This document shows positions 10,511 to 31,168 of a stretch of DNA of 34,260 nucleotides, piece by piece. The notes below the pieces were generated by a model. The model saw only the letters and a list, made by a program, of their open reading frames with translations. It had not been told where the DNA came from and made no database searches. The stretch lies in contig NZ_RHNZ01000025.1 in NCBI RefSeq assembly GCF_003946395.1, positions 1 to 34,260 of the forward strand, in the 5' to 3' direction. The first letter of the stretch is position 1. The number at the start of each line of letters is the position of its first letter. The translations under genes and the position numbers were made by a program. The DNA is from Levilactobacillus fuyuanensis (GTDB taxonomy: Bacteria > Bacillota > Bacilli > Lactobacillales > Lactobacillaceae).

Positions 10511-10670
10511 GGCGGTGAAAATAAACCGGGACGCGGTGGGCGGACGTTCCGAGCCACAGAGCGGTCTCGAAACTTGCTTTGAACCTCTGAGAACCGAGTT
10601 TCAAAGTCACCAATTCTCTAAGCGACAAGTCGCTAAGAGAATTCCCACGGCTGAGTTTATTTTCACCGCC
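10511..10670 (-). ncRNA. Cloverleaf-like structured element, copy 4 (divergent member)
   Basis: Read on the minus strand. The outer stem is GGCGGTGAAAATAAAC pairing with its exact complement (10655-10670 with 10511-10526). Inside are hairpin P2 (10612-10643, 14 of 15 pairs), stem CTTTGAA/TTCAAAG, and hairpin P3 TTTCGAG - loop ACCGCTCTGTGG - CTCGGAA (10547-10572). The P3 loop is identical to copy 3 and the stem differs but still pairs. AGCCGTGG before P2 is also shared with copies 1 and 2. It ends 80 nt upstream of rimM, in sense orientation. No known family recognised. Confidence 0.6.
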
Positions 10671-10854
10671 CTCACGGCTGACATTGATTCAACCAAGTTT
10701 AACTGTTTATTCAATTAGAAATTGTTTTCACGTAATGATCACCATGACCGATCACAATAAAGTTGCGGATTACTGCAATGGTATTTTACCACTATCAGCG
10801 ACGTTTCCCACCGGTTTATGTCCAAACTAATCGTCGCATTAACACGACTATCTT

Positions 10855-11036
10855 AGCCGAAGGAGGCCAGAGATGGCGCCAGCCGTGGCGGTGGTGTTGG
10901 CTGATGTTTTTCAGCCAGCACCACGGGACGTATTTGAAGACGTGTGATTTTCTCGGCTTCAAATCGAGCCGAAAGACCGCTCTATGGCTCTCGGCGGTCC
11001 CCACAGCAGGCAGAATCTCTGGCAGCCGCAGGCGAA
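10855..11036 (+). ncRNA. Cloverleaf-like structured element, copy 1
   Basis: Closing stem P1 is GCCAGAGAT (10866-10874) with ATCTCTGGC (11015-11023). Hairpin P2 is GTGGTGTTGGCTGA/TCAGCCAGCACCAC. P4 is ATTTGAAG/CTTCAAAT. P3 is CCGAAAG - loop ACCGCTCTATGG - CTCTCGG (10969-10994). It is flanked by AGCCGAAGGAGG on the left and CAGCCGCAGGCG on the right, both shared with copies 2 and 3. It is antisense to the surrounding rpsP-rimM genes and its 3' end lies 61 nt from the khpA stop. It may be an RNA, or a DNA-level repeat with RNA-like folding. Confidence 0.65.
10873..10947 (+). CDS. Possible 24-residue peptide inside cloverleaf copy 1
   Basis: AAGGAGG is followed six bases later by ATG; the frame begins MAPAVAVVLADV and ends in TGA at 10945-10947. 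Copy 2 has the same arrangement with a 25-residue frame beginning MEPAVVMTLADV and ending at the matching TGA, while copy 3 has GTG then an immediate stop. The conserved frame may be a side effect of conserved structure. Low confidence as a real gene. Confidence 0.25.
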   Translation: MAPAVAVVLADVFQPAPRDVFEDV

Positions 11037-11097
11037 CAGCTCGCTTAATGTGACGCTTAGTTTGGGGTACAAAAAAACTCGAGGAAACGTTGCCGCC

Positions 11098-11358
11098 TCA
11101 CTCGAGAGTCTTTGCCGGGCGGTCATCAATGATGAGTCGTACCCGTTTATTGCCTTGAACGCGAACGCTATAGACGATTGTACGAATCGCCTGCGCCACG
11201 CGGCCTTGTTTACCGATCACCCGACCGATATCGTCCGGATGAACGGTTAACCGATATTCGTAGAACCGGTCCGTCTCCTGAGGTGTTACCACCAAAGCTT
11301 CGGGATGTTCCACGAGTGGGCTAACAATTGCTAGAATTAATGCCTTAAAATCGGTCAT
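11098..11358 (-). CDS. khpA: KH domain RNA-binding protein KhpA (YlqC)
   Basis: Small 86-residue protein made of one KH domain, with the RNA-binding loop GRVIGKQGRVAQAIRT (GxxG at 49-52). KhpA pairs with KhpB (Jag) in Firmicutes and affects cell elongation and division through RNA binding. It follows rpsP by nine bases, the standard order. The ribosome binding site is weak, so it probably relies on coupling to rpsP. In Bacillus the next genes would be ylqD and rimM; here the gap is filled by repeats. Confidence 0.93.
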   Translation of the reverse strand: MTDFKALILAIVSPLVEHPEALVVTPQETDRFYEYRLTVHPDDIGRVIGKQGRVAQAIRTIVYSVRVQGNKRVRLIIDDRPAKTLE

Positions 11359-11367
11359 GGCTAATCA

Positions 11368-11643
11368 CTACTTTTTAGTGTATTTAGCTTCGTGGTATTG
11401 CTTCATGATACCAGCGTTGGAGAGTAAAGTCTTAACCGTATCTGAAGGTTGAGCACCATTGTTCAACCAGTTCATGATAGATTCTTCCTTCAACGTAATT
11501 GAAGCAGGTTGGGTAACTGGATTGTACGTTCCAACTTGTTCGATGAAACGACCATCACGAGGACTCCGTGAGTCGGCAACCACAATCCGGTAGAATGGGC
11601 GCTTCTTAGAACCCATCCGCTTTAAACGAATCTTAACTGACAT
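11368..11643 (-). CDS. rpsP: 30S ribosomal protein S16
   Basis: Full-length S16 of 91 residues: [35 protein letters not shown] at the N-terminus, then a conserved [16 protein letters not shown]. It takes part in 30S assembly. The ribosome binding site is AGGAGG and a good sigma-A promoter lies upstream (11678-11706), so rpsP is the first gene of the khpA, rimM, trmD cluster. Confidence 0.97.
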
Positions 11644-11677
11644 GTAGACACCTCCTGTATTTCTTTCAACGTGTAAT

Positions 11678-11706
11678 AATATACCAGTTTATGGATATGA
11701 TGTAAA
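11678..11706 (-). promoter_or_regulatory. Sigma-A promoter of rpsP
   Basis: TTTACA (11701-11706) and TATATT (11678-11683), read on the minus strand, with a 17-bp spacer. Transcription would start about 30 nt upstream of the rpsP start codon. Confidence 0.8.
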
Positions 11707-11730
11707 GGGTTTTTTCTTTACACCTCGAAA

Positions 11731-12027
11731 TTAATCGAAAGGACGCTGTAACCAGGCCCGATCATTCGGGGTTAAATACTGTTGATTCGCGGCAATCCAC
11801 CGCTGAATGGCCCCGTAATCGTCGAAATCTAATTTTACCGAACTAACCCCCGCTGCCTGTAAATCCTTCGCAAATTGGAGGTCGGCCACGGTGATTGGCG
11901 CTTGGAACAACGGATTCTCCTGAGCCCGTGCGCCCCACTCATCGGCCAAGATGGCATGAGCGTTGCGATACGGTGCTGTTTGTCTAATCAACGACCGTAA
12001 CTCGGCCGCCGTTAACTGTTGGGTCAC
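11731..12027 (-). CDS. Unidentified 98-residue protein in the MoxR/VWA operon
   Basis: Not recognised. The sequence is soluble looking, without membrane segments, rich in Ala, Gln and acidic residues, and ends WLQRPFD. The frame is open to 12054, but the GTG at 12027 has AAGGAGG eight bases upstream and overlaps the VWA stop as GTGA, so it is the likely start. This coupling makes it the third gene of the AAA+/VWA operon and suggests a related function, for example an accessory or client-binding subunit. Confidence 0.65.
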   Translation of the reverse strand: MTQQLTAAELRSLIRQTAPYRNAHAILADEWGARAQENPLFQAPITVADLQFAKDLQAAGVSSVKLDFDDYGAIQRWIAANQQYLTPNDRAWLQRPFD

Positions 12028-13376
12028 GACTTTTCCCTCCTTATCGCCTGCCACTGCGGATCGGTCGTCAGACTCACCACAGTCCCGGGCGCCGACTCGA
12101 CCGAGAACGCCGCGATGGGACTCGTCAGCAACCAGATTACCGGTACCGGCAGTGTTGGCTGTAGATGTCGTTCCCCGTAACCGTCCGTCAAAATAATGAC
12201 GAGCTGGCCACTCGCCCCCTGAAGGAGTCGGGGCAAGGCATCGAAGACCGCCTGAAACCGGGTGCCACCCCCGCCCGTCCGTGTAAGCTGCTGAGGACGG
12301 CGCTGCAGGTCAAAGCGCTTGTTAGGGTCCATGACCGTATCAAACGGATAAACGGTCACCTGGGCGGGATAAACGGCCAATAACGCGGCCATCTGTCCCA
12401 GCAGGTAGCTAATTTCACGGTTACCCATCGATCCCGACTCGTCGACAAAGACTGAAACCTTCTGCCAGGTCGTCACAATCTGACCGGGCAATTCCATTCT
12501 GGCCGGTTGTCGACGGTTGAATCGGCCAAACGCCGGCTGACGTCCCGCTGGTACCTGCCCCAGTCCGCGTTTAAGCAAGGCCCGCCAATCCAGTGGATGC
12601 TCAGCAATCGTCGGCGTCAAAGCTGCCTGAACGGCCCCAGGGAGCGTTCCCCGCTGCTTGGCCGTCAAGGTATCCGCCGTGTGCTGGAAGAGTTGTTGAC
12701 GCCACTGCTCGCGATTTGCCGCGGCGGTGGCATCCGCATCTCCCCAAGTCGAATGGCCGTCTAAATCGGTCGGCTCAATTCCCTCGGTCGCGGTCAGGCG
12801 TGTCGCGTCGGTTCCAGGATGTGCCGGACCACCAGCCGGCTTGGGCTGTGACGAGGCGTGTTGCTTAGCTCGCCACTGGCGCAATTGCTGAAAATAAATG
12901 GCCGAGTCCTGCTGCCGCAAGACCGGTTGGCCAATCAACTGTTGGAGCTTTTGACTGGTAATCGCCTGTTTTGGTAAGTCAGTCAGGTAGTCGTTGACCG
13001 CGGCATCCGTCGCCCAACGCACCAGTCCAGCCTGCGCCGGTGTCTGTAACGCGGCGGCATACCGTTGGGGGTGTTGCCAGAGCAGGTGAAGGACCGTGTG
13101 ACGGAGCATCGTTACCCACTGGGCCCCGGTCCAATTCTGTTTGGCAATCGCCTCTGGATTCAACCGTAGCCGCCAATCCCTGGGCGTCGGCCGTAGCTCT
13201 AACGGCGCGCGCCCCTGACCGACCTCAAGTGTCAGCTGACTGAGCACGTGGCCGTAGAAGGGGTCCGTCTGCAACAGGGCCATGACCGCATTGCGATAAA
13301 GCTCTTGCGACCGCGGGCCCTGGTCGGCGGTCGATACCGTGCCTAACCGTTTCAAATCCTGCGTTAAACTGGTCAT
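12024..13376 (-). CDS. VWA-like (DUF2201-type) protein partnered with a MoxR ATPase
   Basis: Protein of 450 residues. The C-terminal third is a von Willebrand factor A-like domain with an intact MIDAS start DESGSMG (Asp312, Ser314, Ser316) and a later LTDGYGE. The N-terminal part resembles the DUF2201 metallopeptidase-like domain, which normally carries HExxH; here the segment is LRHTVLHLLWQH (His93, His97), with Thr in place of the Glu, so peptidase activity is doubtful. The middle (170-220) is low-complexity linker. It lies four bases downstream of the AAA+ gene. MoxR/VWA pairs act as chaperone-like machines in metal insertion or complex assembly; the client here is unknown. Confidence 0.75.
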   Translation of the reverse strand: MTSLTQDLKRLGTVSTADQGPRSQELYRNAVMALLQTDPFYGHVLSQLTLEVGQGRAPLELRPTPRDWRLRLNPEAIAKQNWTGAQWVTMLRHTVLHLLWQHPQRYAAALQTPAQAGLVRWATDAAVNDYLTDLPKQAITSQKLQQLIGQPVLRQQDSAIYFQQLRQWRAKQHASSQPKPAGGPAHPGTDATRLTATEGIEPTDLDGHSTWGDADATAAANREQWRQQLFQHTADTLTAKQRGTLPGAVQAALTPTIAEHPLDWRALLKRGLGQVPAGRQPAFGRFNRRQPARMELPGQIVTTWQKVSVFVDESGSMGNREISYLLGQMAALLAVYPAQVTVYPFDTVMDPNKRFDLQRRPQQLTRTGGGGTRFQAVFDALPRLLQGASGQLVIILTDGYGERHLQPTLPVPVIWLLTSPIAAFSVESAPGTVVSLTTDPQWQAIRREKS

Positions 13377-13379
13377 CGC

Positions 13380-14564
13380 CTACACCTCGATCTGACTACC
13401 ACGCCGGCCAATCGCCGTTAACTGCTGATACAGCTGCGCCACACCGGGCGTTGTCGCTGTCACAGCCGCAAATTGTTCCAAAAGCTTCGGTTCATCCGCC
13501 AGCTGCTGGGCAATCGCAAACTGACCATCAGCGGGACAGGCCGCCAGCAGTTCACTGAACCGCTGGGCCGTGCTCCCCGTTGTCAGGGGCCAGTCCGCGG
13601 GATTGGCAGCCAAACACAAGCGGAGAATCTGTTGTTGTTGTGCCGGCGCAAGACCCTTAAAGACGGTCACGGCATCCGCTGTCGTATACGCCTGGTCAAC
13701 GGTCAATCCCGGCCGTTGCTCCTGCACGTAACCGGCAAAGGCCGTGCCGACCGTCATCCCCAAGTTTCCTTGCATGATGGCCGCCACGACCGCCGTTTGA
13801 CTCAGGAGTCGTTGCTGTTCTAATTCGTGTAAGGCTTGTGAGACCCGTTCCCAGGCACGGGGTGTCGGTTGCAAGTCATCGTCCGCCGTAGCAGTGGTCG
13901 TCGCAACCATGTGCAGATCGGCGGGATTTTCCGCTAAATAAGCTGTGACCAGTGGGTGAATCCGTGGCTGGCCGTTAACCGTCTGCGTTGCCCAAGCCAA
14001 CCAGGTCGTGGCGTCCGCCGTTAAGACGAGGCGCGTCGTCCGATCGGCAATCGCCGCATCCCCGGGGGTTACGCCGTAATGGCTCTGCTCGAACCCGGCC
14101 ATGGTCGCATCGGGATTTTCCGCGAGGACCAGGTGGACCTGCTCCGGTAGCGTTAACGTATTAATCTGTCGTTGCAGCACGAGATTCATCAGCTCACTCT
14201 GAACTGCCTGTGTTCCCCGGTTAAACTCATCTAAGAACCAGATGATCTCCTGGTCCGGATGGGCTTCGGCGTAACGAATCATGGCAACCAGGGTGTGAGA
14301 ATAGCCAAACTGCACGTCGGCCAGTGACCCATACTTTTCGGTCTGGACAAAGGAATCGCTCGTCAGGGGTGGGACGGGAATCACCAGATCCCCCTTTTCA
14401 ACCAAGCTGACGACCGTCGTAAATAGCTTGGCGTGACGCTGACGGGCCAGGTCCGCGACTAACGCGGATTTCCCGATCCCGGCTTCACCCACGATGGTGG
14501 GCACGCTCCCACTCGCTAGGACGACGTTGGTTGCTTGTAAACACGCTTGATACGTTAAAGCCAC
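13380..14564 (-). CDS. MoxR-like AAA+ ATPase
   Basis: AAA+ ATPase of about 394 residues. Walker A is GEAGIGKSAL near residue 26, Walker B is IIWFLDEFNRG near residue 112, and the sensor region is LVLAENPD. The DEFNRG motif and the following QSELMNLVLQRQ are typical of MoxR-type ATPases. The frame is open to 14573, but that GTG is only one base from the AAGGGG ribosome binding site; the GTG at 14564, ten bases away, fits better. It is the first gene of a three-gene operon with the VWA protein and the 98-residue protein. It probably remodels a protein bound through the VWA partner. Confidence 0.82.
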   Translation of the reverse strand: MALTYQACLQATNVVLASGSVPTIVGEAGIGKSALVADLARQRHAKLFTTVVSLVEKGDLVIPVPPLTSDSFVQTEKYGSLADVQFGYSHTLVAMIRYAEAHPDQEIIWFLDEFNRGTQAVQSELMNLVLQRQINTLTLPEQVHLVLAENPDATMAGFEQSHYGVTPGDAAIADRTTRLVLTADATTWLAWATQTVNGQPRIHPLVTAYLAENPADLHMVATTTATADDDLQPTPRAWERVSQALHELEQQRLLSQTAVVAAIMQGNLGMTVGTAFAGYVQEQRPGLTVDQAYTTADAVTVFKGLAPAQQQQILRLCLAANPADWPLTTGSTAQRFSELLAACPADGQFAIAQQLADEPKLLEQFAAVTATTPGVAQLYQQLTAIGRRGSQIEV

Positions 14565-14593
14565 TACCTTCACACCCCTTCAGGTCACATTCT

Positions 14594-14620
14594 GTAAAAT
14601 AACGATTACCATTATTTTAC
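14594..14620 (-). terminator. Hairpin overlapping the ATPase stop codon
   Basis: GTAAAATAA (with the ATPase Lys-stop codons) and TTATTTTAC form a perfect 9-bp stem around a 9-nt loop. The 3' arm is U-rich on the minus strand but no long T-run follows. Probably a weak terminator between the P-type ATPase and the MoxR gene. Confidence 0.5.
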
Positions 14621-17260
14621 CACGCGGCGTTGAAAGAACTTAACGATTTCCACAATGACAATCATCATAAACGAGGCTCCCAGGACGATGGCCCATTGGA
14701 ACAGATCCAAGTGAGCGACGTGGAACATACCATTTAAGCCCGGAACCAGGATCGTCATGGCTAATAACGCGAAGGCAATCACGATGGCCCAGTTGAAGAA
14801 TTTATTCCGGAACAGGCCGACCGTGAAGATTGAGCCGCGAATCGACTTGGAGTTAAACGCGTGGAATAGTTGAATCAGGCCTAACGTAGCGAAGGCCATG
14901 GTCAGAGCATCGGCATGAGCCAGGTTAGTGGCGGCGTGAACTGGATAGGTAATCGCCATCCAGTAAACAAACAGCGTGATGGCTCCCTCCAGCAGTCCCT
15001 GGTAAAGGATACCGCCCAGCACCCCACCGGAGAAGAAGTTAGACTTCCGGCCACGTGGCGGTTGCTTCATAATGTTACGTTCCATCGGTTCGACCCCCAG
15101 CGCAATCGCTGGCAGGGTGTCGGTCACCAGGTTGATCCAGAGAATGTGGACCGGTGCCAGAATTTGCCAGCCCAACATGGTCATCATGAACAGTGTCAGG
15201 ACTTCACCCAGGTTGGCGGACAGCAGGTACTGAATGGCCTTTTGAATGTTAGCAAAGACTTTCCGTCCTTCCTCAACGGCCACGACAATCGTGGAAAAGT
15301 TATCATCGGCCAAGACCATATCGCTGGCCCCCTTGGAAACCTCGGTCCCGGTGATGCCCATCCCAATCCCGATATCGGCAGCCTTCAGTGCGGGGGCATC
15401 GTTGACCCCATCACCGGTCATGGCGACGACCTTACCGTGCCGCTGCCAAGCTGTCACGATCCGCACCTTATGCTCCGGCGCGACCCGCGCGTACACCGCA
15501 TAATCCTTGACCTTGTTGGCAAAGGTAGTGTCGTCCATGGCGTCCAGCTCGGCACCGGTAATCACGGCATCGGTCTCGCCCGCTTCGATGATGCCCAAAC
15601 GCGTGGCAATGGCGGCCGCCGTATCCCGGTGGTCCCCCGTGATCATCAGGGGACGAATCCCAGCCGATTTGGCGTCGGCCACGGCCTGTTCAACCTCTGG
15701 CCGTTCGGGGTCGATCATCCCCACCATTCCGGCAAAGACCAGGTCGTTTTCAACGTTAGCACTGGTCATATTCGTTGGCACTGCGTCGACGATTCGGTAG
15801 GCAAAGGCCAGAACTCGTAAGGCCTGCGTAGCCATCTCATGATTAGTCGTCAGGATGGCCTCGCGGTCGACAGCCGTCAACGATGCCGCCTGACCCTGCT
15901 TAGCCACCTGTGTCACCCGTTTCAGCAGTTCATCCGGCGCCCCTTTAACGGCGATCAAGAACCGTTTATCGGGTAAAGGATGAACGGTCGACATTAACTT
16001 CCGCTCGGAATCGAAGGGAATCTCCGCCACCCGTGGTCGGTCGGCTAGGATTTGATCAACGGGATAGTCACGGTCCATTTGGTATTGGACCAACGCGGTT
16101 TCGGTAGGATCACCGGCCAAACCTTCATCAGTGATTTTCGTATCGTTGCTGAGAATCATGGTTTGAGCCAACAGATTGTCTCGGTCAAAGTTCAGGCTGT
16201 GAGCGTCGACCAGCTTTAAATCCTGATAAACTTTTTCAACGGTCATCTTGTTTTGCGTCAGTGTCCCGGTCTTATCGGAAGCAATGATATCGGTACTTCC
16301 CAGCGTCTCCACGGCCGGTAGCTTCCGCACAATGGCGTGGCGCTTGGCCATTCGCTGGGTACCCAAGGCCAGCGTAATTGTGACGATGGCTGGCAACCCT
16401 TCTGGAATTGCTGCAACGGCTAAGGAAATCGCCGTTAGTAGCATGTCAATCAGGCTCTCGGCCTGCCGCCACATTCCCATGGCAAAGACAATGGCCGCAA
16501 TCACTAAGATCAGAATCGTCAGGGATTTCCCAAGCTGCGTCAGGTTGGCCTGTAACGGCGTAGTCGTCTCGTCGGCGGCTTCAATCATGCCGGCAATCCG
16601 ACCGACTTCCGTTTGCATCCCGGTGGCGACCACGACCCCGGTGGCTCGACCGTACGTGACGTTACTATTCATAAACGCCATGTTAGCGCGGTCCCCGATG
16701 GGCAAGTCATCGCCCGTCAAGATGCCATCGCGCTTCTCAACCGGCACAGATTCCCCGGTCAGCGCGGACTCCTCAACCTTGAGTGAGCCCACCTCGACCA
16801 ACCGCAGATCGGCGGGAATGATGTCGCCGGCTTCCAGCAACACAATGTCCCCAACCACCAATTCATCACTCTTGACGGTCGTAACGACGTTGCCCCGGCG
16901 CACGGTGGCATTGGGGGCCGACATCTCCTTTAAGGCGTTGATGGCTTCTTCGGCCTTAGCCTCTTGAAAGACTCCGAAGACGGCGTTTAGCACGACCACA
17001 ACCAGGATAATCACGGCATCGACGACTTCACCGGTCAGACCGGCGATCAGGGCCGCCACCATCAGGACAATGATCATAAAATCCTTGAACTGTGCGATGA
17101 ACTTCTGCAAGAGCGATGTGGTCTTCTGCTGATTCAAGGCGTTCTTGCCATTCTGCGCCAGTCGCTCCTGCGCGGTCTGCGCGCTGAGGCCTTGCGCATC
17201 AGTCTGTAGCGACTGGTAAATAGTGGACACGGGTTGCTGGTAAATTGGGGCTTTTGCCAT
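14612..17260 (-). CDS. P-type Ca2+/Mn2+-transporting ATPase (PacL/PMR1/SERCA-like)
   Basis: P2-type cation pump of 882 residues. Visible marks are the N-terminal cation-ATPase domain, LTGES at 167-171 in the actuator, AAIPEGLPA (283-291) in membrane helix 4, the phosphorylation site SDKTGTLT with Asp329, MTGDGVNDAPALK, and INLVTDTLPAIALG in helix 6. There are about ten membrane helices and no N-terminal metal-binding domain. Related enzymes in Lactococcus and Streptococcus export Mn2+/Ca2+ and are controlled by a yybP-ykoY manganese riboswitch. A matching leader lies upstream here, which makes Mn2+ or Ca2+ the most likely substrate. The ribosome binding site is AGGAGG. Confidence 0.92.
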   Translation of the reverse strand: MAKAPIYQQPVSTIYQSLQTDAQGLSAQTAQERLAQNGKNALNQQKTTSLLQKFIAQFKDFMIIVLMVAALIAGLTGEVVDAVIILVVVVLNAVFGVFQEAKAEEAINALKEMSAPNATVRRGNVVTTVKSDELVVGDIVLLEAGDIIPADLRLVEVGSLKVEESALTGESVPVEKRDGILTGDDLPIGDRANMAFMNSNVTYGRATGVVVATGMQTEVGRIAGMIEAADETTTPLQANLTQLGKSLTILILVIAAIVFAMGMWRQAESLIDMLLTAISLAVAAIPEGLPAIVTITLALGTQRMAKRHAIVRKLPAVETLGSTDIIASDKTGTLTQNKMTVEKVYQDLKLVDAHSLNFDRDNLLAQTMILSNDTKITDEGLAGDPTETALVQYQMDRDYPVDQILADRPRVAEIPFDSERKLMSTVHPLPDKRFLIAVKGAPDELLKRVTQVAKQGQAASLTAVDREAILTTNHEMATQALRVLAFAYRIVDAVPTNMTSANVENDLVFAGMVGMIDPERPEVEQAVADAKSAGIRPLMITGDHRDTAAAIATRLGIIEAGETDAVITGAELDAMDDTTFANKVKDYAVYARVAPEHKVRIVTAWQRHGKVVAMTGDGVNDAPALKAADIGIGMGITGTEVSKGASDMVLADDNFSTIVVAVEEGRKVFANIQKAIQYLLSANLGEVLTLFMMTMLGWQILAPVHILWINLVTDTLPAIALGVEPMERNIMKQPPRGRKSNFFSGGVLGGILYQGLLEGAITLFVYWMAITYPVHAATNLAHADALTMAFATLGLIQLFHAFNSKSIRGSIFTVGLFRNKFFNWAIVIAFALLAMTILVPGLNGMFHVAHLDLFQWAIVLGASFMMIVIVEIVKFFQRRVVK

Positions 17261-17341
17261 TTTCCATTTCCTCCTATGGTGTGCGCCGACCTCACCTGAT
17301 TAACCCGCGATAATGATTAACAGTCACCATTAAATGAGGTT

Positions 17342-17470: not shown

Positions 17471-17486
17471 GAATTGCTTTAGAGAT

Positions 17487-17515
17487 AGTATACCGGATAA
17501 ACCTCCCGGCGTCTA
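17487..17515 (-). promoter_or_regulatory. Promoter of the P-type ATPase leader
   Basis: TAGACG (17510-17515) and TATACT (17487-17492) on the minus strand, 17-bp spacer. It would start transcription just ahead of the riboswitch. Confidence 0.6.
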
Positions 17516-17564
17516 CTCTTTTGCAAGTTTCAAATTGAAAGCACCGCTAGCTGAAAATTCAAGG

Positions 17565-19028: not shown

Positions 19029-19047
19029 TCGTATTGCCACCTAACTT

Positions 19048-19843: not shown

Positions 19844-19895
19844 CTAATTTTAGTATATTTATCTTTTTAAATTTTATTTTGCAATAGACTCTGAT

Positions 19896-22414: not shown

Positions 22415-25400
22415 TAGGATTGCTTCCCTTCCGTCGTGGTTTGTTTATCCAGATCTACGGCGACCATCTTGGAAACGCCGGACTCCTGCATCGTCACCCC
22501 GTATAAGATATCGGCTTGGACCATCGTCTCTTGCCGGTGGGTGATCACGATGAACTGGGTCTGATCCTGGAACTGATGAATGTAGCGGGCGAACCGGGTC
22601 ACATTGGCCGGATCCAGCGCCGCTTCCACTTCATCCAAAATACAGAATGGTACGGGTTGTACCTGTAAAATTGCAAATAATAGCGTAATTGCTGTCAGGG
22701 CACGTTCGCCTCCGGAAAGGAGTCCCATATTCTGGAACTTCTTGCCCGGTGGCTGGGCCATGATGTCAATTCCCGTGGTCAACAGGTCGTGGGGATCGGT
22801 CAAGACCAACTCGGCCTTACCACCGCCAAACATCTGCTTGAACGTCGCCGCAAACTTCTCGGCAATCTGATCAAAACTCTGCTTGAACCGCCGTTTGACC
22901 TGACCGTCGAGCTCATCCATGCTCGTGGTCAACTGATCACGCGCCGTGAGTAAGTCATCGCGTTGCTGGGTCAAGAAGTCGTAGCGTTCACGAACCTCTT
23001 TGTATTCAGCGATGGCGTTCACGTTGACCGTCCCAATCTCATCCAGCCCACGCTTCAACAGCTTCAACTGCACGGCCAACTCGGTATCGGGGAGGTCGCT
23101 AACTTCGGTCTCCGCACCGGCTAAGCTCAGCTGGTACTTCTCGGAAAGTTGATTCTGCTGTTGGTCGATCAACGCGGCTAACCGGGTCTGCTTGACCTGC
23201 GCCTGTTGGAGATCGTCGTTGGCCAATTGCAACAGCCCACTGGTCCGCTGGTTCGCGTCCTCGGCCGCTGCCAACTGGTCGTTGACCGTGGTCAACGTTT
23301 CGTTGCTGGCCACCAGTTCGTGGTCGATAGCTTTCCGATCGGCCTGCGCCTGCTTCAACTGTGTCTCGGCTTCAACCGGCGTCAAAGCCTCCCGCTGATC
23401 TAGTTGTTTCAGATCAGTGGTCAGCGTGGCAACTTGTTGCTCGGCCGCTGCAATGTGGTGTTTCAGGTCCGCACAGGTCGTCCGTTGTTGCTGCTGGCGT
23501 TCCTTAGCCCCAGCCTGCCAAGCCTGCTTCTCAGAGAGTTGGGCCTGCTTGGTCGTCTGTTCGGCCGTGACCGTCTCAATCTGTTTCTGGACGGTCTGGA
23601 CTTGCGCTTCGGTCGCCGTAATCTGCTTCTCACCGGTCAAAATCTGCTCGGCTAAGTGCGCATCCTGCTGGTCATCCCCGGCATTTTTCGCCTGATCGAT
23701 GTCCAATTGCGCCGCCTTGACCTGGCGACTGGCTTGAGACAGCGCAGTTTGCGCACTGGCTAAATCATCATCCAGTTGCCGACACTGCGGCTGTAACCGA
23801 TTGATAGTCGCCTGGAGCGTCTGGCTTCGCTGTTCGCTAGCTAACATGGTAGCTCTGGTCGTCTTAATCTTCGCTTCTTGTTCTTGTAACTGTGGTTTCA
23901 TCTGAGCGATTGACGCTTGTAACTGTTGCAAGTCCTGTTGTTGCCGGAGCACGCTGCTGTGATTCTGCCGCGCTTGCCCCCCGGTAATGGCCCCACTGGC
24001 GCTGACCACGTCGCCGGCCAGACTGACCACCCGATAACGGTGATGGATCTGCTGACTAATGGCCACCGCAGCGTCGAGGTCGCTTGCAAAGATCGTGGTC
24101 CCCAACAAGTACTCTAAAATGTTAGCGGCCCGGCCGTCAATCTTGACCAGGTCACTCCCAATACCTAGAAAACCGGCCAGCGACTGCAAGTTTTGCCGTG
24201 TCGTCCGGTCAACCTGACGCCCGTGAATGGCCGTCAGCGGCAGGAAGGTGGCGCGCCCAGCACGTTGCTGGCGCAGGTAACTCACAGCGGACTTCGCCGT
24301 CGTTTCATTATCCACGACCACCTGTTGGAGCTGACCACCCAGCGCATATTCAACGGCTGCTGTGTAACGTTCAGGCACGTCTAGTAACTCTGAAACAGCC
24401 CCCAAGAGACCCGCGAACTGTTGGCGCTGCTTGAGGATGGCCCGTACACCTTGGTAGAAGCCCCCATATTCAGCCGAAGCCGCCTGTTGGCTCGCTGCCT
24501 TGGTCTGCGCGCGTTGATAGACTTCCAACGCCGCCTGCCAATTGTGTTGCAATTGCTGATAGGTCTGTTGCTGTTGTTGATACTGACCGGCCTCGGTATC
24601 GAGGGTCTGTTCCGCCGCGTTTAGCTCGGACTTGTGCGTCGTTGCCGCTGCGGTGGCCGTATCAACCTTGGCCTGAGCCGTCTTTTCAGTCGCCTGTAAA
24701 TCGGCTAGCTGTCGAGCGACCCGTTCACCTTGCTGCAGTAACCGTTCCTGATTCTGCTGAATGTACTGCCGCTGGTTTCGCCAATTGGCAACGCTCTGTT
24801 TCTGATCGAAATAGGTCGTCCGCAGTTGTTCCAACTTAGCCCGCAGATCACTCAGCGTCTTGGGCGCCGTTGCCTTGGTCAGTTCACGAATCTCGGCCTT
24901 GGCTGTGGTCATGGCCGACGTTAGATCCTTTAAGGTCTGTTCAGTAGTGGCTAATTGTTCCTGGTCCGACGCAATTTCACGTCGTAACTGTTGCAACTGA
25001 TCCGTGGTCGCCTGACGCTGTTCGTCTTGGTGCCGTTGTTGTTCGCCGGACAGATTAACCTGTCCCTGACACTGTTCGACCTTTCGGGTAGCCGCAATCA
25101 GCTTGGCCTGCAAGTCATCCTTCTTGGCTAGCAACGCTGTCTGACGCTGCTTGAGCGCCTGAACCGTTGTCGTCTGGTCGCGCTCCGCTGTCTGGTGATT
25201 GGCAACTAAGTGTTGTTTTTCCTTAACCGCCGCATCCGCGGAACCCTTTTGATCCAATTCCGTATGCAGTTGTCGCACCAACTGGGTCTTTTCCAACAAT
25301 GCATACTTCTTTTGCTGGTCCAGATAATCCTCAGCTAAACTGCTCTGTTCCTCCAACGGCTCCAAACGACCCTCGAGCTCAGCCACAATGTCCTCAACCC

Positions 25401-25968
25401 GATGCAGGTACGTCATGGTCTCTTCCAGCTCGCGTTGGGCCTTTTCCTTGTCCTTGCGGTACTTGTAAACGCCGGCAACTTCCTCGACGATGTTCCGTCG
25501 TTCCTCGGGTTTACTGTTAAAGATCGCCTCGACTCGTCCCTGTGAAATAATCGAGAATGAATCTTGCCCCATTCCCGAGTCCATTAACAGCTCCGTGATA
25601 TCCCGCAACCGACAATTCTGCCCGTTGATTTGATAGTCACTCTCGCCGGACCGGTACAGGATGCGGCTGATCGTTAACTCCGTGTAGTCGCTCTTCAGGT
25701 AGTGGTCGCTGTTATCCAGCGTAATCGCCACTGCCGCACGATTCAGCGGATGGCGGTCGGCTGACCCAGCAAAGATGACATCGGGCATCTTACTACCTCG
25801 CAAGCTCTTCGCTGACTGTTCCCCCAAAACCCACCGCACAGCTTCAGAAATATTACTCTTTCCACTACCATTAGGGCCGACGATGCCGGTCATCCCCGGC
25901 AAAAAGTCAATTCGAGTCTTATCCGCGAAGGACTTGAACCCGCTAATTTCTAATGTCTTTAACCGCAT
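22414..25968 (-). CDS. smc: Chromosome partition/condensation ATPase Smc
   Basis: Full-length SMC of 1184 residues. N-terminal Walker A GPNGSGKSN (31-39), long coiled coil rich in Gln, hinge at roughly 505-660 (GLLGAVSELLDVPERYTAAVEYALGGQLQQVVV...SGAITGG), second coiled coil, then the C-terminal signature LLSGGERALTAITLLFAI and Walker B FCILDEVEAALD. It forms condensin with ScpA and ScpB to extrude DNA loops and separate chromosomes. The order rnc-smc-ftsY is conserved in Firmicutes. The rnc stop lies about a dozen bases upstream. Confidence 0.97.
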   Translation of the reverse strand: MRLKTLEISGFKSFADKTRIDFLPGMTGIVGPNGSGKSNISEAVRWVLGEQSAKSLRGSKMPDVIFAGSADRHPLNRAAVAITLDNSDHYLKSDYTELTISRILYRSGESDYQINGQNCRLRDITELLMDSGMGQDSFSIISQGRVEAIFNSKPEERRNIVEEVAGVYKYRKDKEKAQRELEETMTYLHRVEDIVAELEGRLEPLEEQSSLAEDYLDQQKKYALLEKTQLVRQLHTELDQKGSADAAVKEKQHLVANHQTAERDQTTTVQALKQRQTALLAKKDDLQAKLIAATRKVEQCQGQVNLSGEQQRHQDEQRQATTDQLQQLRREIASDQEQLATTEQTLKDLTSAMTTAKAEIRELTKATAPKTLSDLRAKLEQLRTTYFDQKQSVANWRNQRQYIQQNQERLLQQGERVARQLADLQATEKTAQAKVDTATAAATTHKSELNAAEQTLDTEAGQYQQQQQTYQQLQHNWQAALEVYQRAQTKAASQQAASAEYGGFYQGVRAILKQRQQFAGLLGAVSELLDVPERYTAAVEYALGGQLQQVVVDNETTAKSAVSYLRQQRAGRATFLPLTAIHGRQVDRTTRQNLQSLAGFLGIGSDLVKIDGRAANILEYLLGTTIFASDLDAAVAISQQIHHRYRVVSLAGDVVSASGAITGGQARQNHSSVLRQQQDLQQLQASIAQMKPQLQEQEAKIKTTRATMLASEQRSQTLQATINRLQPQCRQLDDDLASAQTALSQASRQVKAAQLDIDQAKNAGDDQQDAHLAEQILTGEKQITATEAQVQTVQKQIETVTAEQTTKQAQLSEKQAWQAGAKERQQQQRTTCADLKHHIAAAEQQVATLTTDLKQLDQREALTPVEAETQLKQAQADRKAIDHELVASNETLTTVNDQLAAAEDANQRTSGLLQLANDDLQQAQVKQTRLAALIDQQQNQLSEKYQLSLAGAETEVSDLPDTELAVQLKLLKRGLDEIGTVNVNAIAEYKEVRERYDFLTQQRDDLLTARDQLTTSMDELDGQVKRRFKQSFDQIAEKFAATFKQMFGGGKAELVLTDPHDLLTTGIDIMAQPPGKKFQNMGLLSGGERALTAITLLFAILQVQPVPFCILDEVEAALDPANVTRFARYIHQFQDQTQFIVITHRQETMVQADILYGVTMQESGVSKMVAVDLDKQTTTEGKQS

Positions 25969-25980
25969 CGTTAGTCATCC

Positions 25981-26676
25981 TTACTCTGTTTTCAAATTCT
26001 CCAGGGCATGGCGCGCCGCATTCTGTTCGGCGTGCTTCTTCGAGTGGCCGTGGCCCTCACCCAATTTTTTATCGTCCACGTAAACGGCGACTTCGAAGGC
26101 ACGATCGTTGTCGGGACCCTCTTCGTCTAGTAAACGGTAGTCGATGGTGACGGAGCCGTTCTTTTGAACCAGTTCCTGTAACTCCGTCTTGTGGTCAAAG
26201 AACTCGTCGAAACGGCCCTCATCTAATTTCGGAAAAACAACCGTCGTGACGAAACCAACGACCTTATCCAGGCCTTGGTCCATGTACAACGCCCCGATAA
26301 ATGATTCGAAAATATCACATAACAGGGAGTCACGTTGCCGGGCTTGCGCCTTCTCTTCACCTCGACCCAAACGAATATACTGGTCGAAGTGACACTCACG
26401 CGCAAAACTAGCAAAGCTCTGTTCATTCACCATGGCTGCCCGTAACCGGGTCAACCGTCCCTGTGGCATATTGGGGTACCGCCGGAAAATGTAGTTGGAT
26501 ACCACCAACTGCATGACCGCATCCCCTAAAAATTCAATGCGTTCATAAAATTTAAGTCCCTGATTGGGGTGTTCGTTGACGTAAGAAGCCTGCGTAAACG
26601 CCTCATCTAGCAAGGATTGGTCTTTAAAATGGATATCGAAGTTATCTTTTAGTTCTTGATTTAATCCAGCAATCAC
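25981..26676 (-). CDS. rnc: Ribonuclease III
   Basis: Double-strand-specific RNase that processes rRNA precursors and structured mRNAs. The RNase III signature YERIEFLGDAVMQL has Glu45, Glu48 and Asp52; the second metal-ligand segment is CDIFESFIGAL with Asp121 and Glu124. A C-terminal double-stranded RNA-binding domain ends GHSKKHAEQNAARHAL. Length is 231 residues. The start is GTG with GAGGG nine bases upstream. It would be a natural processor of the long hairpins found elsewhere in this cluster. Confidence 0.96.
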   Translation of the reverse strand: MIAGLNQELKDNFDIHFKDQSLLDEAFTQASYVNEHPNQGLKFYERIEFLGDAVMQLVVSNYIFRRYPNMPQGRLTRLRAAMVNEQSFASFARECHFDQYIRLGRGEEKAQARQRDSLLCDIFESFIGALYMDQGLDKVVGFVTTVVFPKLDEGRFDEFFDHKTELQELVQKNGSVTIDYRLLDEEGPDNDRAFEVAVYVDDKKLGEGHGHSKKHAEQNAARHALENLKTE

Positions 26677-26841
26677 GCGCTAATTCCCTCATTTCTATTG
26701 TTCTGTTAGGTACTTTGGGGCCTTTGGTTGGTTCTAGTTTGGTGCTGCTTCGGTTCTACTCAATAAGGCACTCCTATTGCCATTCGCCCGCCTCGGGTAT
26801 TGGTGCTTCCTGGCTGACGGGACTGGTTCGGAACCTCTTTA

Positions 26842-26870
26842 ATTTTATATAGCCGAAACGTGCGCCACAA
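26842..26870 (-). promoter_or_regulatory. Candidate promoter of rnc-smc-ftsY
   Basis: TTGTGG (26865-26870) and TAAAAT (26842-26847) on the minus strand, 17-bp spacer, about 170 nt ahead of rnc. A terminator after acpP (26977-27012) isolates this unit from upstream transcription, which supports a promoter in this gap. Confidence 0.5.
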
Positions 26871-26892
26871 GGCAGGTCCCTGCGCTTAACCC

Positions 26893-26932
26893 CAATAAGG
26901 AAAAATCCAGGCCCGGGATTTTACCCTTATTG
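26893..26932. repeat. Strong inverted repeat in the acpP-rnc gap
   Basis: CAATAAGG-A-AAAATCC and GGATTTT-AC-CCTTATTG pair over 15 bp around AGGCCCG. No T-run on either side, so not an obvious terminator. It lies just upstream of the candidate rnc promoter. The rest of 26677-27022 shows no gene. Confidence 0.6.
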
Positions 26933-26976
26933 ACGTTAATGCTCAGGACCTAAGCACCTTGTTCTGCACTCTAGAC

Positions 26977-27012
26977 TGAAAAAGCCCGGGACAAAGAATT
27001 GCGGCCCGGACT
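26977..27012 (-). terminator. Terminator after acpP
   Basis: On the minus strand AGTCCGGG pairs with CCCGGGCT (one G-U) around a 14-nt loop, then TTTTTC. It is ten bases past the acpP stop. Confidence 0.85.
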
Positions 27013-27022
27013 CGCTCAATCG

Positions 27023-27274
27023 TTATTTATCTTCGGTTTGGTGGGCCACGATGTAGTCGACCACTTCGCCAACGGTCATCAATTTCTCGGCATCTTCGTC
27101 GGAAATTTCCGCGTTAAACGTATCTTCCAGTTCCAAGACGAATTCCACGAAATCAATGGAGTCGGCGTCTAGGTCCTTCTTAAAGTTCAACTGTTCGTTG
27201 ATTTGGTCCCGGTCGGTTTCAAACCGATCGGCAATAATATCGGCAATCTTGTCAAAAATTTCTGCTCTCGTCAT
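27023..27274 (-). CDS. acpP: Acyl carrier protein
   Basis: Protein of 83 residues with the phosphopantetheine site DADSIDFVEFVLELED, Ser39 (DSID where DSLD is most common). Acidic four-helix carrier of growing acyl chains. It sits directly after plsX, as in other Firmicutes, which matches its role as acyl donor for phospholipid synthesis. Lactobacilli often have a second acpP in the fab cluster; this copy is the plsX-linked one. A terminator follows. Confidence 0.95.
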   Translation of the reverse strand: MTRAEIFDKIADIIADRFETDRDQINEQLNFKKDLDADSIDFVEFVLELEDTFNAEISDEDAEKLMTVGEVVDYIVAHQTEDK

Positions 27275-27400
27275 ATCTATCCCTCGCTCACAGTATTCAA
27301 TAAGTAGTCTAACCGTTTTGGCTGACCTTGTCTAGCAAATTAATATCGGTCACGAATTCATTTTTAGTGTGAAATGACCCGTAACACCACACTTTGACGC

Positions 27401-28435
27401 TTACTTCAGGGATTCCTTCAAGGCCGCCATCTCATCGGTGTGATCGGCAAAGTAGCTGACTAACTGATCAGCACTCTTGGTCTCGATCAACTCGCGAATC
27501 TGACCGATCGTGTTCTTGACGGTTGGTGCCTTGCTGGAACCATGCGTCTTAACGACTGGTGCTTTCAAGCCCAAGAGCACGGCTCCCCCATATTGGGAGT
27601 AATCCATGGCACTCTGGACATTCTTGAAGACCGGCTTCAACATGCTGGCCCCAATCTTACCACCCAGACCACCACTCATGATTTCACCCTTAATGAGCTT
27701 CAACATGGAGAGCGCAGTTCCTTCAATGGCCTTCAACGTGGCATTTCCAGTAAACCCATCGGTCACAACAACGTCTGCCGCCCCGTTTAAGAGTTCCCGC
27801 GATTCGACGTTGCCGATAAAGTTAATGCTGTCGATGCTGTCCAGGGCCTGATAGATAGCCTGGTGCGCCATGTCACCTTTGTCAGCTTCGGTCCCGTTGT
27901 TCAACAGGCCAATCCGGGGTTGTTTCACGTGCATGATTGATTGCGCGTAGTACTGACCCATTACGGCGTATTGGACGACGTTAAACGGCTTGGTATCGGC
28001 ATTCGCACCCACGTCCAACATCACAAAGCTGGACTGGTCCGGCTTGCGTAAGACGGGGAGTGTCGTGGTCAATCCTGGCCGGGCAATACCCTTGATTCGG
28101 CCAACGATCAGCAAGCCAGCGGCCAATACGGCCCCGGAATTTCCGGCGGAGAAGAAAGCATCCGCCTCACCATCCTTGACAGCGTTCGCAGCAAGCACGA
28201 TGCTGGATTGCTTCTTCCGCCGGATGGCCCGGACTGGTTCGTCCTCCATGGCGATGACCTCAGCGGCCGGCACCAATGTGATACGACTGTCGTTTTGAAT
28301 CAACGGCTTCACTTGTTCTTCTTGTCCGTATACCAAAAATTCAACGTCACTGTAAGCGTCTCGTGCTAATTCGACACCTTTGATAATTTCAGCGGGGGCG
28401 TAATCGCCACCCATTGCGTCAACGGCAATTTTCAT
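27401..28435 (-). CDS. plsX: Phosphate acyltransferase PlsX
   Basis: Makes acyl-phosphate from acyl-ACP for PlsY, the first step of phosphatidic acid synthesis, as a peripheral membrane enzyme. The N-terminus MKIAVDAMGGDYAP, then FFSAGNSGAVLAAG, MLDVGAN, and VVTDGFTGNATLK are typical. 344 residues, the usual length. It follows recG by 13 bases with AGAAGGAG before the ATG. The fapR gene found here in Bacillus is absent, as usual in lactobacilli. Confidence 0.96.
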   Translation of the reverse strand: MKIAVDAMGGDYAPAEIIKGVELARDAYSDVEFLVYGQEEQVKPLIQNDSRITLVPAAEVIAMEDEPVRAIRRKKQSSIVLAANAVKDGEADAFFSAGNSGAVLAAGLLIVGRIKGIARPGLTTTLPVLRKPDQSSFVMLDVGANADTKPFNVVQYAVMGQYYAQSIMHVKQPRIGLLNNGTEADKGDMAHQAIYQALDSIDSINFIGNVESRELLNGAADVVVTDGFTGNATLKAIEGTALSMLKLIKGEIMSGGLGGKIGASMLKPVFKNVQSAMDYSQYGGAVLLGLKAPVVKTHGSSKAPTVKNTIGQIRELIETKSADQLVSYFADHTDEMAALKESLK

Positions 28436-28448
28436 AATTCGTCTCCTT

Positions 28449-30488
28449 CTAATCCATGGTGGTGTTCTGATGGGCCGTCGTGCTCAGAAACGCAGCGAGC
28501 GCCAAGTTGGCATCCTTATCCGCCCAATCGGGGGAAGCCACCGTTTCCTTAGCCGCCTGTTGGGCCGCACTCAGAATATTCAAGTCGGCCACGGGATCAC
28601 CGACCTTGAAGTCGGGCACCCCAGACTGCTTTTTACCCAGAATATCACCTGGACCCCGTAATTCCAAATCCTTTTGTGATAAAACAAACCCATCGTTGGT
28701 GCTGGTCATGGTCGTCATCCGCTCAACGGCCAGCTCATTCTTCGGGTCCGCAATCAAGATACAAGCGGAAGCCTTCTTACCCCGGCCGACCCGGCCACGC
28801 AACTGATGGAGCTGGGCCAGACCAAAGTGGTCGGCGTCATAGATCAGCATCACCGTAGCGTTAGGTACATCGACGCCAACTTCAATCACGGTCGTGGCGA
28901 CCAGAACTTGGAACTCGTTGGCCTTGAAGGCATCCATCACGGCGTTCTTTTCGTCATTTTTCATCCGACCGTGGAGCAAGCCCACCTTATAGGTCGGTTC
29001 GAACTGTTCCTTGAAACGCTCGTAAATGGCCTCGGCATTCTTCATGTCGACGGCCTCCGATTCCTCAATCAAGGGTGTCACTACGTAGGCCTGCGAACCA
29101 CTACTCAACTCGGCCTTGACCTGCCGGAGCGTGCTGTCAACCTGATTGCTGCGAATCCATGAGGTCTTGATAGGTTGGCGTCCGGCTGGTAATTCATTGA
29201 TGACCGAAACGTCCATTTCGCCATAGGCGGTAATCGCCAGTGTCCGGGGAATTGGCGTCGCCGTCATGGCCAGAACGTCGGGTTGTTGGCCCTTCTCACG
29301 TAAAGCCTGCCGTTGATTGACCCCAAAACGGTGTTGCTCATCGATCACGGCGAGGCCGAGGTCGTGGTAAGCCACTTCCGGTTGAATCAGCGCGTGCGTC
29401 CCGACAATCAGGTTGACGGCGCCGTTAGCAATCTGCGGCAACAGCGTCTTCCGGGCGGCGGGCTTGGTGGCCCCCGTCAACAGGGCCACGTTGACCGGAA
29501 AGTCGGCGAACAATTTTGCTAAATTATTAGCGTGTTGCTCGGCCAAGATTTCCGTCGGGGCCATGAGGGCGGCTTGCGTTCCCGCAGTGATGGCCGCGTA
29601 CATGGCTACGGCGGCCACGACGGTCTTCCCACTCCCTACGTCCCCCTGCAGGAGCCGGTTCATGTGGACTGGTCGCTTCAGGTCGTAGCAGATTTCATTG
29701 ACCACCCGTTTCTGGGCGTCCGTCAGTTCATACGGTAGCGAGGCAATGAAGTCCTTGAGCTTGGGCAAGTCGTAGGTCAATGCCTGGCCATGAAGCGTGT
29801 GATCCTGTTGCTTCACAATCTGTAGACGTGTTTCAAAGAGATAGAACTCCTCAAACTTAGCTGTCCGCCGAGCCGCTTGGGCTGCGGCATCTCCTGCCGG
29901 GAAGTGCATGTCGTGAATCATCTGGCGCCGGTGCAACAAGCGATACTGCTCGCGCAATGGCTCCGGAATCAGGTCCACGATGACTGGTTCGTAGGCGTCA
30001 TAGGCACTTTCGACCAGTTTCTGAATAGTGGCCTGCCGCACCTCCTTATTAGCGGGATAGATCGACCCCATGCCGCCACCATCGTCGGTACTAGCAATGA
30101 TTTTCATACCAGCTAGGCTCTGCCGCTTGGCATCGAAACGACCATACACGGCCAGTTCATTCCCGACCTCCAGCTTATCCTTGAGCCACGGCTGATTAAA
30201 GAACGTGACCGGAATAATCGTGTGCTCGTCCAGGAGTAACCGAAAGTTCAGTCGCGTCTTCCGCCGACCGAACCGTGAAATCACGGGAGCGGCGGCCACG
30301 GTGCCCTTTAGGGTCACTTTAGCTTGATCGGTCAATTCGGTAGGATCTTTGGCCTGCAAGTCCTCGTAACGAAACGGGAAGTAGGTCAACAGGTCGTTGA
30401 CGTTCTCGATATCCAAGGACTTCAGCGCTTGCGCCCGCTTCGGCCCAACACCGGCCAGCTCACTGACCGAATCATTCAAACTCACCAT
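28449..30488 (-). CDS. recG: ATP-dependent DNA helicase RecG
   Basis: Branch-migration helicase acting on stalled forks and Holliday junctions. The N-terminal wedge/OB domain includes a helix-hairpin-helix-like ELAGVGPKRAQ and the OB-like TLKGTVAAAPVISRFGRRKTRLNF. The helicase core has Walker A GDVGSGKT (282-289), the DEQH box (383-386) with HRFGVNQR, and the motif VI region QLHQLRGRVGRG. 679 residues, full length. The ribosome binding site is GGAGGGG. A copy of the cloverleaf element ends 61 nt upstream in sense orientation. Confidence 0.96.
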   Translation of the reverse strand: MVSLNDSVSELAGVGPKRAQALKSLDIENVNDLLTYFPFRYEDLQAKDPTELTDQAKVTLKGTVAAAPVISRFGRRKTRLNFRLLLDEHTIIPVTFFNQPWLKDKLEVGNELAVYGRFDAKRQSLAGMKIIASTDDGGGMGSIYPANKEVRQATIQKLVESAYDAYEPVIVDLIPEPLREQYRLLHRRQMIHDMHFPAGDAAAQAARRTAKFEEFYLFETRLQIVKQQDHTLHGQALTYDLPKLKDFIASLPYELTDAQKRVVNEICYDLKRPVHMNRLLQGDVGSGKTVVAAVAMYAAITAGTQAALMAPTEILAEQHANNLAKLFADFPVNVALLTGATKPAARKTLLPQIANGAVNLIVGTHALIQPEVAYHDLGLAVIDEQHRFGVNQRQALREKGQQPDVLAMTATPIPRTLAITAYGEMDVSVINELPAGRQPIKTSWIRSNQVDSTLRQVKAELSSGSQAYVVTPLIEESEAVDMKNAEAIYERFKEQFEPTYKVGLLHGRMKNDEKNAVMDAFKANEFQVLVATTVIEVGVDVPNATVMLIYDADHFGLAQLHQLRGRVGRGKKASACILIADPKNELAVERMTTMTSTNDGFVLSQKDLELRGPGDILGKKQSGVPDFKVGDPVADLNILSAAQQAAKETVASPDWADKDANLALAAFLSTTAHQNTTMD

Positions 30489-30549
30489 CGTGACACCCCT
30501 CCCATCCTTATTGTTTTTACTTTAATCTCGTGGTTAATGCGCGTTTTAC

Positions 30550-30735
30550 TTCGCCTGCGGCTGTCAGGGATTCCACCTGCTGTGGGGACCGGGCCAAGCC
30601 ACAAAGCGGTCTTGACCCTCGACTTGAAGCCGTCAAAGATCAGACGTCTCCAAGCTCGTCCCATGACGTAACCTGACAAGAAACGTCAGCTAACGTCATC
30701 ACCACGGCCGGTTCCATCCCTGACCTCCTCCGGCT
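30550..30735 (-). ncRNA. Cloverleaf-like structured element, copy 2
   Basis: Read on the minus strand. P1 is GTCAGGGAT (30716-30724) with ATCCCTGAC (30563-30571). P2 is ATGACGTTAGCTGA/TCAGGTTACGTCAT, 12 of 14 pairs. P4 is CTTGGAG/CTTCAAG with a G-U pair. P3 is GGGTCAAG - loop ACCGCTTTGTGG - CTTGGCCC (30591-30618). It is flanked by AGCCGGAGGAGG and CAGCCGCAGGCG. It ends 61 nt before recG, in the sense direction, so it may be part of the recG leader. Confidence 0.65.
30640..30717 (-). CDS. Possible 25-residue peptide inside cloverleaf copy 2
   Basis: GGAGG lies six bases before an ATG; the frame begins MEPAVVMTLADV and stops at a TGA matching that of copy 1 (there MAPAVAVVLADV). The two frames differ by one codon in length. 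It may be a leader peptide or a by-product of conserved structure. Confidence 0.25.
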   Translation of the reverse strand: MEPAVVMTLADVSCQVTSWDELGDV

Positions 30736-30984
30736 AATGTAAACGTTAACCACGATATTGATTTAACAATATTATCGGGTAGGTTGCCACAACAAGATGT
30801 ATCTCGCATCAGCAACATACCATTCAACACTTAATTTTACGCCTTACTTGTCAGTCGTCAAAGGCTGAAACCAGTTAGATTAGCTGAATACTGCCAAATA
30901 TTTCCGACTGACCACTGAATAGTCCAGCATGATTGTCCATCGTCTTCCGCGCAACGCGACTTGGTGCCGTGAAAAAACAGCTTA

Positions 30985-31168
30985 AGCCGGAGGAGGCTAG
31001 ACGTGTAGCCAGCTGTGACGATGGCGTTAATTGGCGATTTGGGCCAATTTACACCATGGACGTGCTTGGAGACTCGTGATTTTCGAGGCTTCAAGGCGAG
31101 GGAAAAGACCGCTCTGTGGCTTTTCCCGGTCCCACAGCAGGCGGAACGTCTAGCAGCCGCAGGCGACA
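30985..31168 (+). ncRNA. Cloverleaf-like structured element, copy 3
   Basis: P1 is GCTAGACGT (30996-31004) with ACGTCTAGC (31146-31154). P2 is ATGGCGTTAATTGG/CCAATTTACACCAT, 12 of 14 pairs. P4 is CTTGGAG/CTTCAAG, capped by an inner CTCG/CGAG stem. P3 is GGGAAAAG - loop ACCGCTCTGTGG - CTTTTCCC (31100-31127). Same flanks as copies 1 and 2. It is divergent from copy 2 across a 249-nt spacer with no gene, and its 3' end lies 71 nt from the fakA stop. Confidence 0.65.

Follow-up and report, generated by a model that had tools for sequence, protein, structure and literature searches.

The window, a stretch of 34,260 bp from a Levilactobacillus genome, contains two units of similar build, one between genes that we take to be khpA and rimM and the other between genes that are presumably dak and recG (Table 1). 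By eye, both units directly follow what looks like the terminator hairpin of the upstream gene, and their modules have a GC content of 53–60% in a window of 51% GC. Copies at their own place aside, each spacer has a single match among the loci compared (E 1e-3), which in both cases is the orthologous spacer of L. parabrevis (80% over 177 bp for unit 1 and 76% over 122 bp for unit 2). The window also holds two reading frames that face apart, 8051–8470 (+) and 6702–7955 (−), presumably those of an IS200/IS605-like transposase and a TnpB-like protein, and a second, lone frame at 3677–4897 (+) that we likewise take to be TnpB-like.

Table 1 Features of the two units in the window (bit scores from the covariance model R1 unless stated)
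Feature	Position	Strand	Score or composition
khpA–rimM intergenic region, 667 bp, with unit 1 inside	10431..11097		
Module, B-type, unit 1 (first-pass copy 1)	10500..10679	−	66.8 bits (copy outside the R1 training set); B profile 126.9 bits (copy itself part of that profile)
Spacer of unit 1, A+T-rich	10680..10854		37% GC
Module, A-type, unit 1 (first-pass copy 2)	10855..11035	+	192.6 bits (copy inside the R1 training set)
dak–recG intergenic region, 751 bp, with unit 2 inside	30489..31239		
Module, A-type, unit 2 (first-pass copy 3)	30551..30735	−	201.2 bits (copy inside the R1 training set)
Spacer of unit 2, A+T-rich	30736..30984		41% GC
Module, A-type, unit 2 (first-pass copy 4)	30985..31166	+	185.2 bits (copy inside the R1 training set)

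A first-pass annotation had claimed four cloverleaf copies, and all four are present in the window with one common architecture (R1, E ≤ 1.4e-15 each). Three belong to type A; the copy at 10500 is of a second type, B, in which stem P1 is long and A+U-rich. The perfect 9-bp P1 stems that had been described exist (GCCAGAGAT, GTCAGGGAT and GCTAGACGT), but their carriers are the copies at 10855, 30551 and 30985 rather than copies 1–3. Likewise, the 12-nt loop of P3, described as nearly invariant, is alike in the four window copies but only there; CTGTGG is found in this loop in 3 of the 130 A-type copies of the window's genome. The element still looks undescribed when compared with Rfam: none of 4227 families matched the window at its gathering score, and the best weak match around unit 2 reached 19 bits for a cut-off of 70.

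With the copy at 10855–11035 as blastn query, the window's genome gave 167 candidates, the best 40 of which were scored. The A-type alignment consists of 31 copies and leaves out window copy 10500, which is of the other type. RNAalifold predicts 51 pairs from these copies, 36 with two-sided changes, and the fold extended by hand has 54 pairs, of which 38 have two-sided changes, with 95.6% of paired cells pairing. None of 500 shuffles matched this fold in pairing, two-sided changes or covariation score (0.396 compared with 0.183 in shuffles); with partners slid by 1–3 columns, the score was 0.05–0.09 and only 29–41% paired. P1 covaries too, with arms ~130 nt apart (helix 2 has two-sided changes in 10 of its 11 pairs). 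A further putative short helix, P5 (GGGA:UCCC), can enclose P3 and P4 and would turn the fold into a pair of joined three-way junctions; although 98.3% paired, P5 is nearly invariant (one two-sided change), so that covariation says little about it, and with it the fold has 58 pairs, 95.7% paired. The fetched stretches contain 130 distinct A-type copies; any two of them are on average 72% identical (2,000 sampled pairs), and 95.9% of cells pair. The B-type consensus fold, from 26 sequences, has 59 pairs, 40 with two-sided changes. The proposal that selection acts on structure is upheld to the extent that the fold has been kept through two-sided changes; part of the compensatory variation, however, looks like hairpins swapped between copies, so that covariation gives too high a count of independent compensations.

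The strand that carries ACCGCTCTGTGG had been put forward as the RNA, and the pair counts agree: GU exceeds AC by 338 to 81 in the 130 A-type copies. With GU-rich pairs removed the counts are 212 and 89, and GU outnumbers AC in 37 of 56 pairs and is outnumbered in 9 (sign test, P = 4e-5). The pseudoknot suggested between CTGTGG and CCACAG fares poorly, with a six-pair match in just 7 of the 130 copies and a partner that already lies within P1; loop and partner form on average 4.46 of 6 pairs compared with 3.82 for shuffled loops.

The A-type modules have some further recurrent details. P1 is interrupted by a symmetric purine-rich mismatch, GGA/GCA, with outer G and A bases that are >90% conserved, and by a second internal loop, AG/AG, whose 5′ side is conserved to ~two thirds. 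The module lies between weak complementary A- and T-tracts. In P1 of 10855–11035, 30551–30735, 30985–31166 and many A copies, a stretch like GGAGGAGG is followed six bases later by an ATG or GTG that resembles a start codon. Translation of a peptide from this site is unlikely because some A copies read ATG TAG at their sole start-like site, but the stretch does resemble a ribosome site.

The modules are numerous and taxonomically restricted. R1 has at least 149 matches in the 2.72-Mb genome of the window (E ≤ 0.01; best 150 of 870 candidates scored), among which two pairs overlie the same stretch on opposite strands; at ~185 nt each, the element family makes up ~1% of this genome. Of the 83 match clusters outside the window, 80 were fetched and three were left out. 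Matches occur in 33 of 35 genomes of the genus, including that of the window (E ≤ 1e-4; at most 75 scored per genome), in 71 of 301 genomes and 10 of 40 genera of the family (E ≤ 1e-6), and in 10 of 295 genomes of an order-wide draw, all ten of which share the family label of the window. We also assembled 89 named loci, selected for carrying the motif; hosts among 80 of these 89 stretches are nine named Levilactobacillus species, Lactiplantibacillus mudanjiangensis and Companilactobacillus huachuanensis, and one search of the named loci took in 80 of the 89. In plasmids, one L. tujiorum unit and one A module each had no blastn match at E 1e-5, and the same held for a different A module in phages.

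Neighbouring modules are arranged in a consistent manner. In the window's genome, neighbours less than 700 bp apart stand minus then plus, with tails outward, in 35 of 38 cases (20 A/A and 15 A/B), and 90 of 160 modules have no recognised partner. In the named loci, 59 of 62 neighbours are tail-out (42 A/B, 14 A/A and 3 B/B), with a median spacer of 89 bp. The partners within an A/A unit are no more alike than random copies (distance of 0.32 compared with 0.28; 18 pairs). A cargo gene between the modules was considered and rejected: the two wide minus–plus pairs inspected in the window's genome enclose ordinary-looking reading frames of 215 and 221 amino acids, the latter presumably ruvA-like, and not a transposase.

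The orthologous sites in relatives are often empty. Each locus is present in 30 of the 35 genus genomes, one relative per site being unscorable. The khpA–rimM gap is 670 bp in the nearest relative and 75–125 bp in 20 of 28 scored relatives; the dak–recG gap is 779 bp in the nearest relative and 71–101 bp in 19 of 28. The remaining gaps measure 171–691 bp. Of the 14 relative sites with a module match, nine have both modules and five have one (one of these weak), and some longer gaps without a module look like remnants. Pairing, empty sites and the units of relatives described below indicate that the four copies, real as modules, are not free-standing but pair as halves of a transposon-borne unit, which the first-pass annotation had missed.

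Complete units were found in relatives. In an alignment of L. tujiorum units, homology extends past the modules to inverted ends in many cases. The well-preserved units are MITEs of 541–618 bp with 13-bp inverted ends, CTAAAGGTTGAAA...TTTCAACCTTTAG, and 0–2 mismatches per end. Four of them, from two genera (loci L074, L091, L101 and L114), have perfect 8-bp target duplications; they measure 582, 583 and 618 bp in L. tujiorum, the last including a masked run, and 541 bp in Lactiplantibacillus mudanjiangensis. These come from a scan for the 13-bp ends in 293 sequences (≤2 mismatches per end, filtered on duplication or end match), which yielded eight pairs; the others are of 496 bp with one mismatch in the duplication, of 637 bp with two, and two without a duplication. 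Duplications with one mismatch were recorded at L079 and L298. The exact 13-mer occurs 415 times, in 25 of the 35 genus genomes, compared with 4 occurrences of a reversed control pattern.

The same ends bound an insertion sequence of 1,559 bp (L328, 1417–2975), which has both exact ends, the duplication CTGATTAA and a 450-amino-acid transposase that matches NCBIfam NF049925 (transpos_IS4_4) with 470 bits (cut-off of 250) as well as Pfam DDE_5 and DDE_Tnp_1. The A and B profiles find no module inside it. At L302 (1501–1724), a miniature element of 224 bp is bounded by exact IS4-type ends and accompanied by a perfect 8-bp duplication; it has no module match. At L315, a TnpB-like frame that looks like that at 3677–4897 of the window (2108–3013, minus strand) lies ~600 bp from an IS4-type inverted end, which suggests that mobile elements are nested here. 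Neither of the two units in the window has recognised inverted ends or target duplications; the window's genome has one exact 13-mer only and no homologue, at E ≤ 1e-20, of a 200-amino-acid piece of the transposase, whereas 10 of the 35 genus genomes have such a homologue. The membership of the window units therefore rests on their modules, their pairing and the empty sites.

To follow change in place, we compared syntenic sites shared with L. parabrevis; 27 were mapped, 6 were dropped for want of a single full-length orthologue and 21 were used. At each of the 21 sites the module has diverged less than the 150 bp of spacer next to it, a count that includes five barely aligning spacers (37–45%) and one with 15 aligned bases. 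At 10 sites, chosen by identity (≥88.5%), stems change more slowly than loops (47/1018 substitutions, 4.6%, compared with 72/756, 9.5%; Fisher P = 7e-5). Single changes that keep a pair show no excess there over a random model (17 compared with 16.8 expected), and those that break a pair are modestly fewer than expected (19 compared with 26.9; P = 0.02). Constraint on the modules after insertion is thus likely; selection on pairing alone is only modestly shown. At the other 11 sites, where modules are 65–85% identical, stems (279/1174, 23.8%) and loops (221/849, 26.0%) change alike (P = 0.25), and 95 pairs have changed on both sides and still pair, compared with 10 that are broken.

The differences at these 11 sites fall mostly in P2, P4 and P3, and mainly in one hairpin at L201 3042 (P2) and at L205 (P3). 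For the inner part, another copy of the window's genome clearly beats the orthologue at 8 of the 11 sites (best 0.945 compared with 0.54–0.82); the pattern is marginal at window 30985 and at L177 and is contradicted by L174, where the outer part differs more. Among the 130 copies, distances correlate at 0.52 between the two arms of P1 and at 0.77–0.87 between the arms of P2 or of P4; they correlate at 0.31–0.40 among the hairpins and at only 0.05–0.16 between P1 and the hairpins. These observations fit the overwriting of inner hairpins from other copies inside a P1 that stays with its locus, in which case some blocks of compensatory change in P2–P4 did not arise independently. Identity of the 60-bp 3′ flank is 91.5–96.3% at four of the changed sites and 40–74% at seven, and those seven may instead reflect separate insertion, or re-insertion, close to the same place. 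Among mechanisms of exchange we lean towards RecA-type gene conversion, with odds set lower because re-insertion could account for seven of the 11 sites.

For most modules (139 of 160), any overlap with a reading frame of ≥100 codons is 90 bp or less. With frames picked by length and not by a gene finder, the 3′ end of the module points towards a gene end in 81 of 135 scored cases (median of 35 bp) and towards a gene start in 54. Convergent gaps are enriched (34/135 compared with 54/412 in the same loci; P = 0.002). Predicted promoters in the spacer are only slightly enriched (mean z of 0.53, SE of 0.17), at a distance that is not fixed. RNA that runs outward from the spacer would be the simplest reading because the polar strand reads in that direction.

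We consider it highly probable that a non-autonomous transposon left the window feature behind as the remains of two of its copies, and that this transposon is a MITE derived from the IS4 family of insertion sequences. The intact unit, ~540–620 bp where preserved, would consist of a 13-bp inverted end, an outward module, a spacer, an outward module on the other strand and the other end, together with the 8-bp duplication. An IS4-family transposase probably moves it in trans, as the common ends and the length of the duplication suggest. Insertion would take place mostly between genes, often close to gene ends, after which the ends and spacer would decay and the modules (~180–195 nt each) would be kept for longer; their inner hairpins may occasionally be overwritten by those of other copies, most likely through ectopic gene conversion. 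Structured RNA genes that stand alone, or riboswitch-like leaders, inherited vertically and controlling adjacent genes, would account for the strong covariation, the strand polarity and the modules that face a gene start (54/135), but more modules face a gene end (81/135), units with inverted ends and duplications exist and most orthologous gaps of relatives lack modules, which makes this very improbable. Harder still to credit is a REP-type repeat moved by the IS200/IS605-like transposase that we assume at 8051–8470. A short transposase-like frame does adjoin a TnpB-like frame in the window; IS200/IS605 elements, however, are not known to make inverted ends or target duplications, whereas complete units have both, the duplications being of 8 bp and the ends common to an IS4-family insertion sequence.

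If the element is such a MITE, its fold could matter as single-stranded or cruciform DNA in transposition, replication or recombination rather than as RNA. An IS4-family transposase would be expected to need the inverted ends only, and the 224-bp element at L302, with these ends and a perfect duplication, has no module match; a cruciform would have no strand preference, yet GU exceeds AC by 4 to 1. The element is nevertheless mobile DNA, G–T pairs are tolerated in DNA as well, and a repeat motif elsewhere is discussed, in the part of that paper available, as possibly relevant as DNA (PMC11109978), so that we rate this reading as unlikely but worth keeping in view. A little less credible to us is that covariation is largely a by-product of exchange, in which self-complementary hairpins are swapped or template switches correct palindromes without selection on the fold. 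It would explain the 11 sites at which two-sided paired changes far exceed broken pairs and stems change as fast as loops, the identity of up to 0.95 reached by the best paralogous interiors, and the largely independent variation of P2, P3 and P4 relative to P1; it does not predict the GU:AC polarity, P1 covaries despite its distant arms and at the remaining 10 sites loops have changed faster than stems. For the MITE itself we tentatively favour a role of the modules at the RNA level: transcription would run outward from the spacer, and the folded product would most likely serve as a leader or buffer through which neighbouring genes tolerate the insertion. A more speculative and rather improbable extension is a self-maintaining RNA population, of 130–150 members here, that is selected at its sites, with P1 bound to the locus and inner hairpins traded as cassettes; an intermediate of RNA or single-stranded DNA might then carry them, in place of ordinary gene conversion. 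If true, the transposon would be the vehicle of an exchangeable structured-RNA system adopted by the host.

The open-licence PMC literature searched, beyond which descriptions in print may exist, yielded, among the papers listed, no description of these repeats, nor of branched modules paired tail-out with IS4-family ends and exchange of hairpins; the available main text of PMC11109978 and PMC8632094 contains no Lactobacillus name. The family can be compared, by description only, with several known repeats. BOX and RUP of Streptococcus pneumoniae are, in the available text, high-copy and probably non-autonomous, with predicted RNA folds and ends that resemble those of resident insertion sequences; BOX is composed of boxA–boxB–boxC and likened to ISSpn2, and RUP, of 107 bp, to IS630-Spn1 (PMC3049150). 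They are alike in being MITEs with an RNA-like fold, whereas here there are two divergent, branched modules of ~180 nt, tail-out, with IS4-family ends and 8-bp duplications. The intergenic repeats bcr1–bcr18 belong to another host group, the Bacillus cereus group; bcr1–3 are MITE-like, and bcr10 and bcr18 have a conserved fold and are transcribed, and paired tail-out modules and IS4-family ends are absent from the available part of their description (PMC3446304). QMITE2 of Coxiella burnetii has inverted ends, target duplications, a stable predicted transcript fold and an insertion sequence as its source, and prokaryotic MITEs are typically AT-rich, according to the text available (PMC10969869); here, by contrast, the modules are GC-richer and the fold resides in two internal modules, kept through two-sided changes. 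With the IS4-family insertion sequence (NF049925) the units have in common the exact 13-bp ends and the 8-bp duplication, but that element holds a transposase gene and no module. The family thereby offers a large natural experiment on how mobile DNA keeps RNA-like folds, and suggests that the swapping of hairpins among copies can pass for stepwise compensatory mutation, a caution for covariation tests on repeats.
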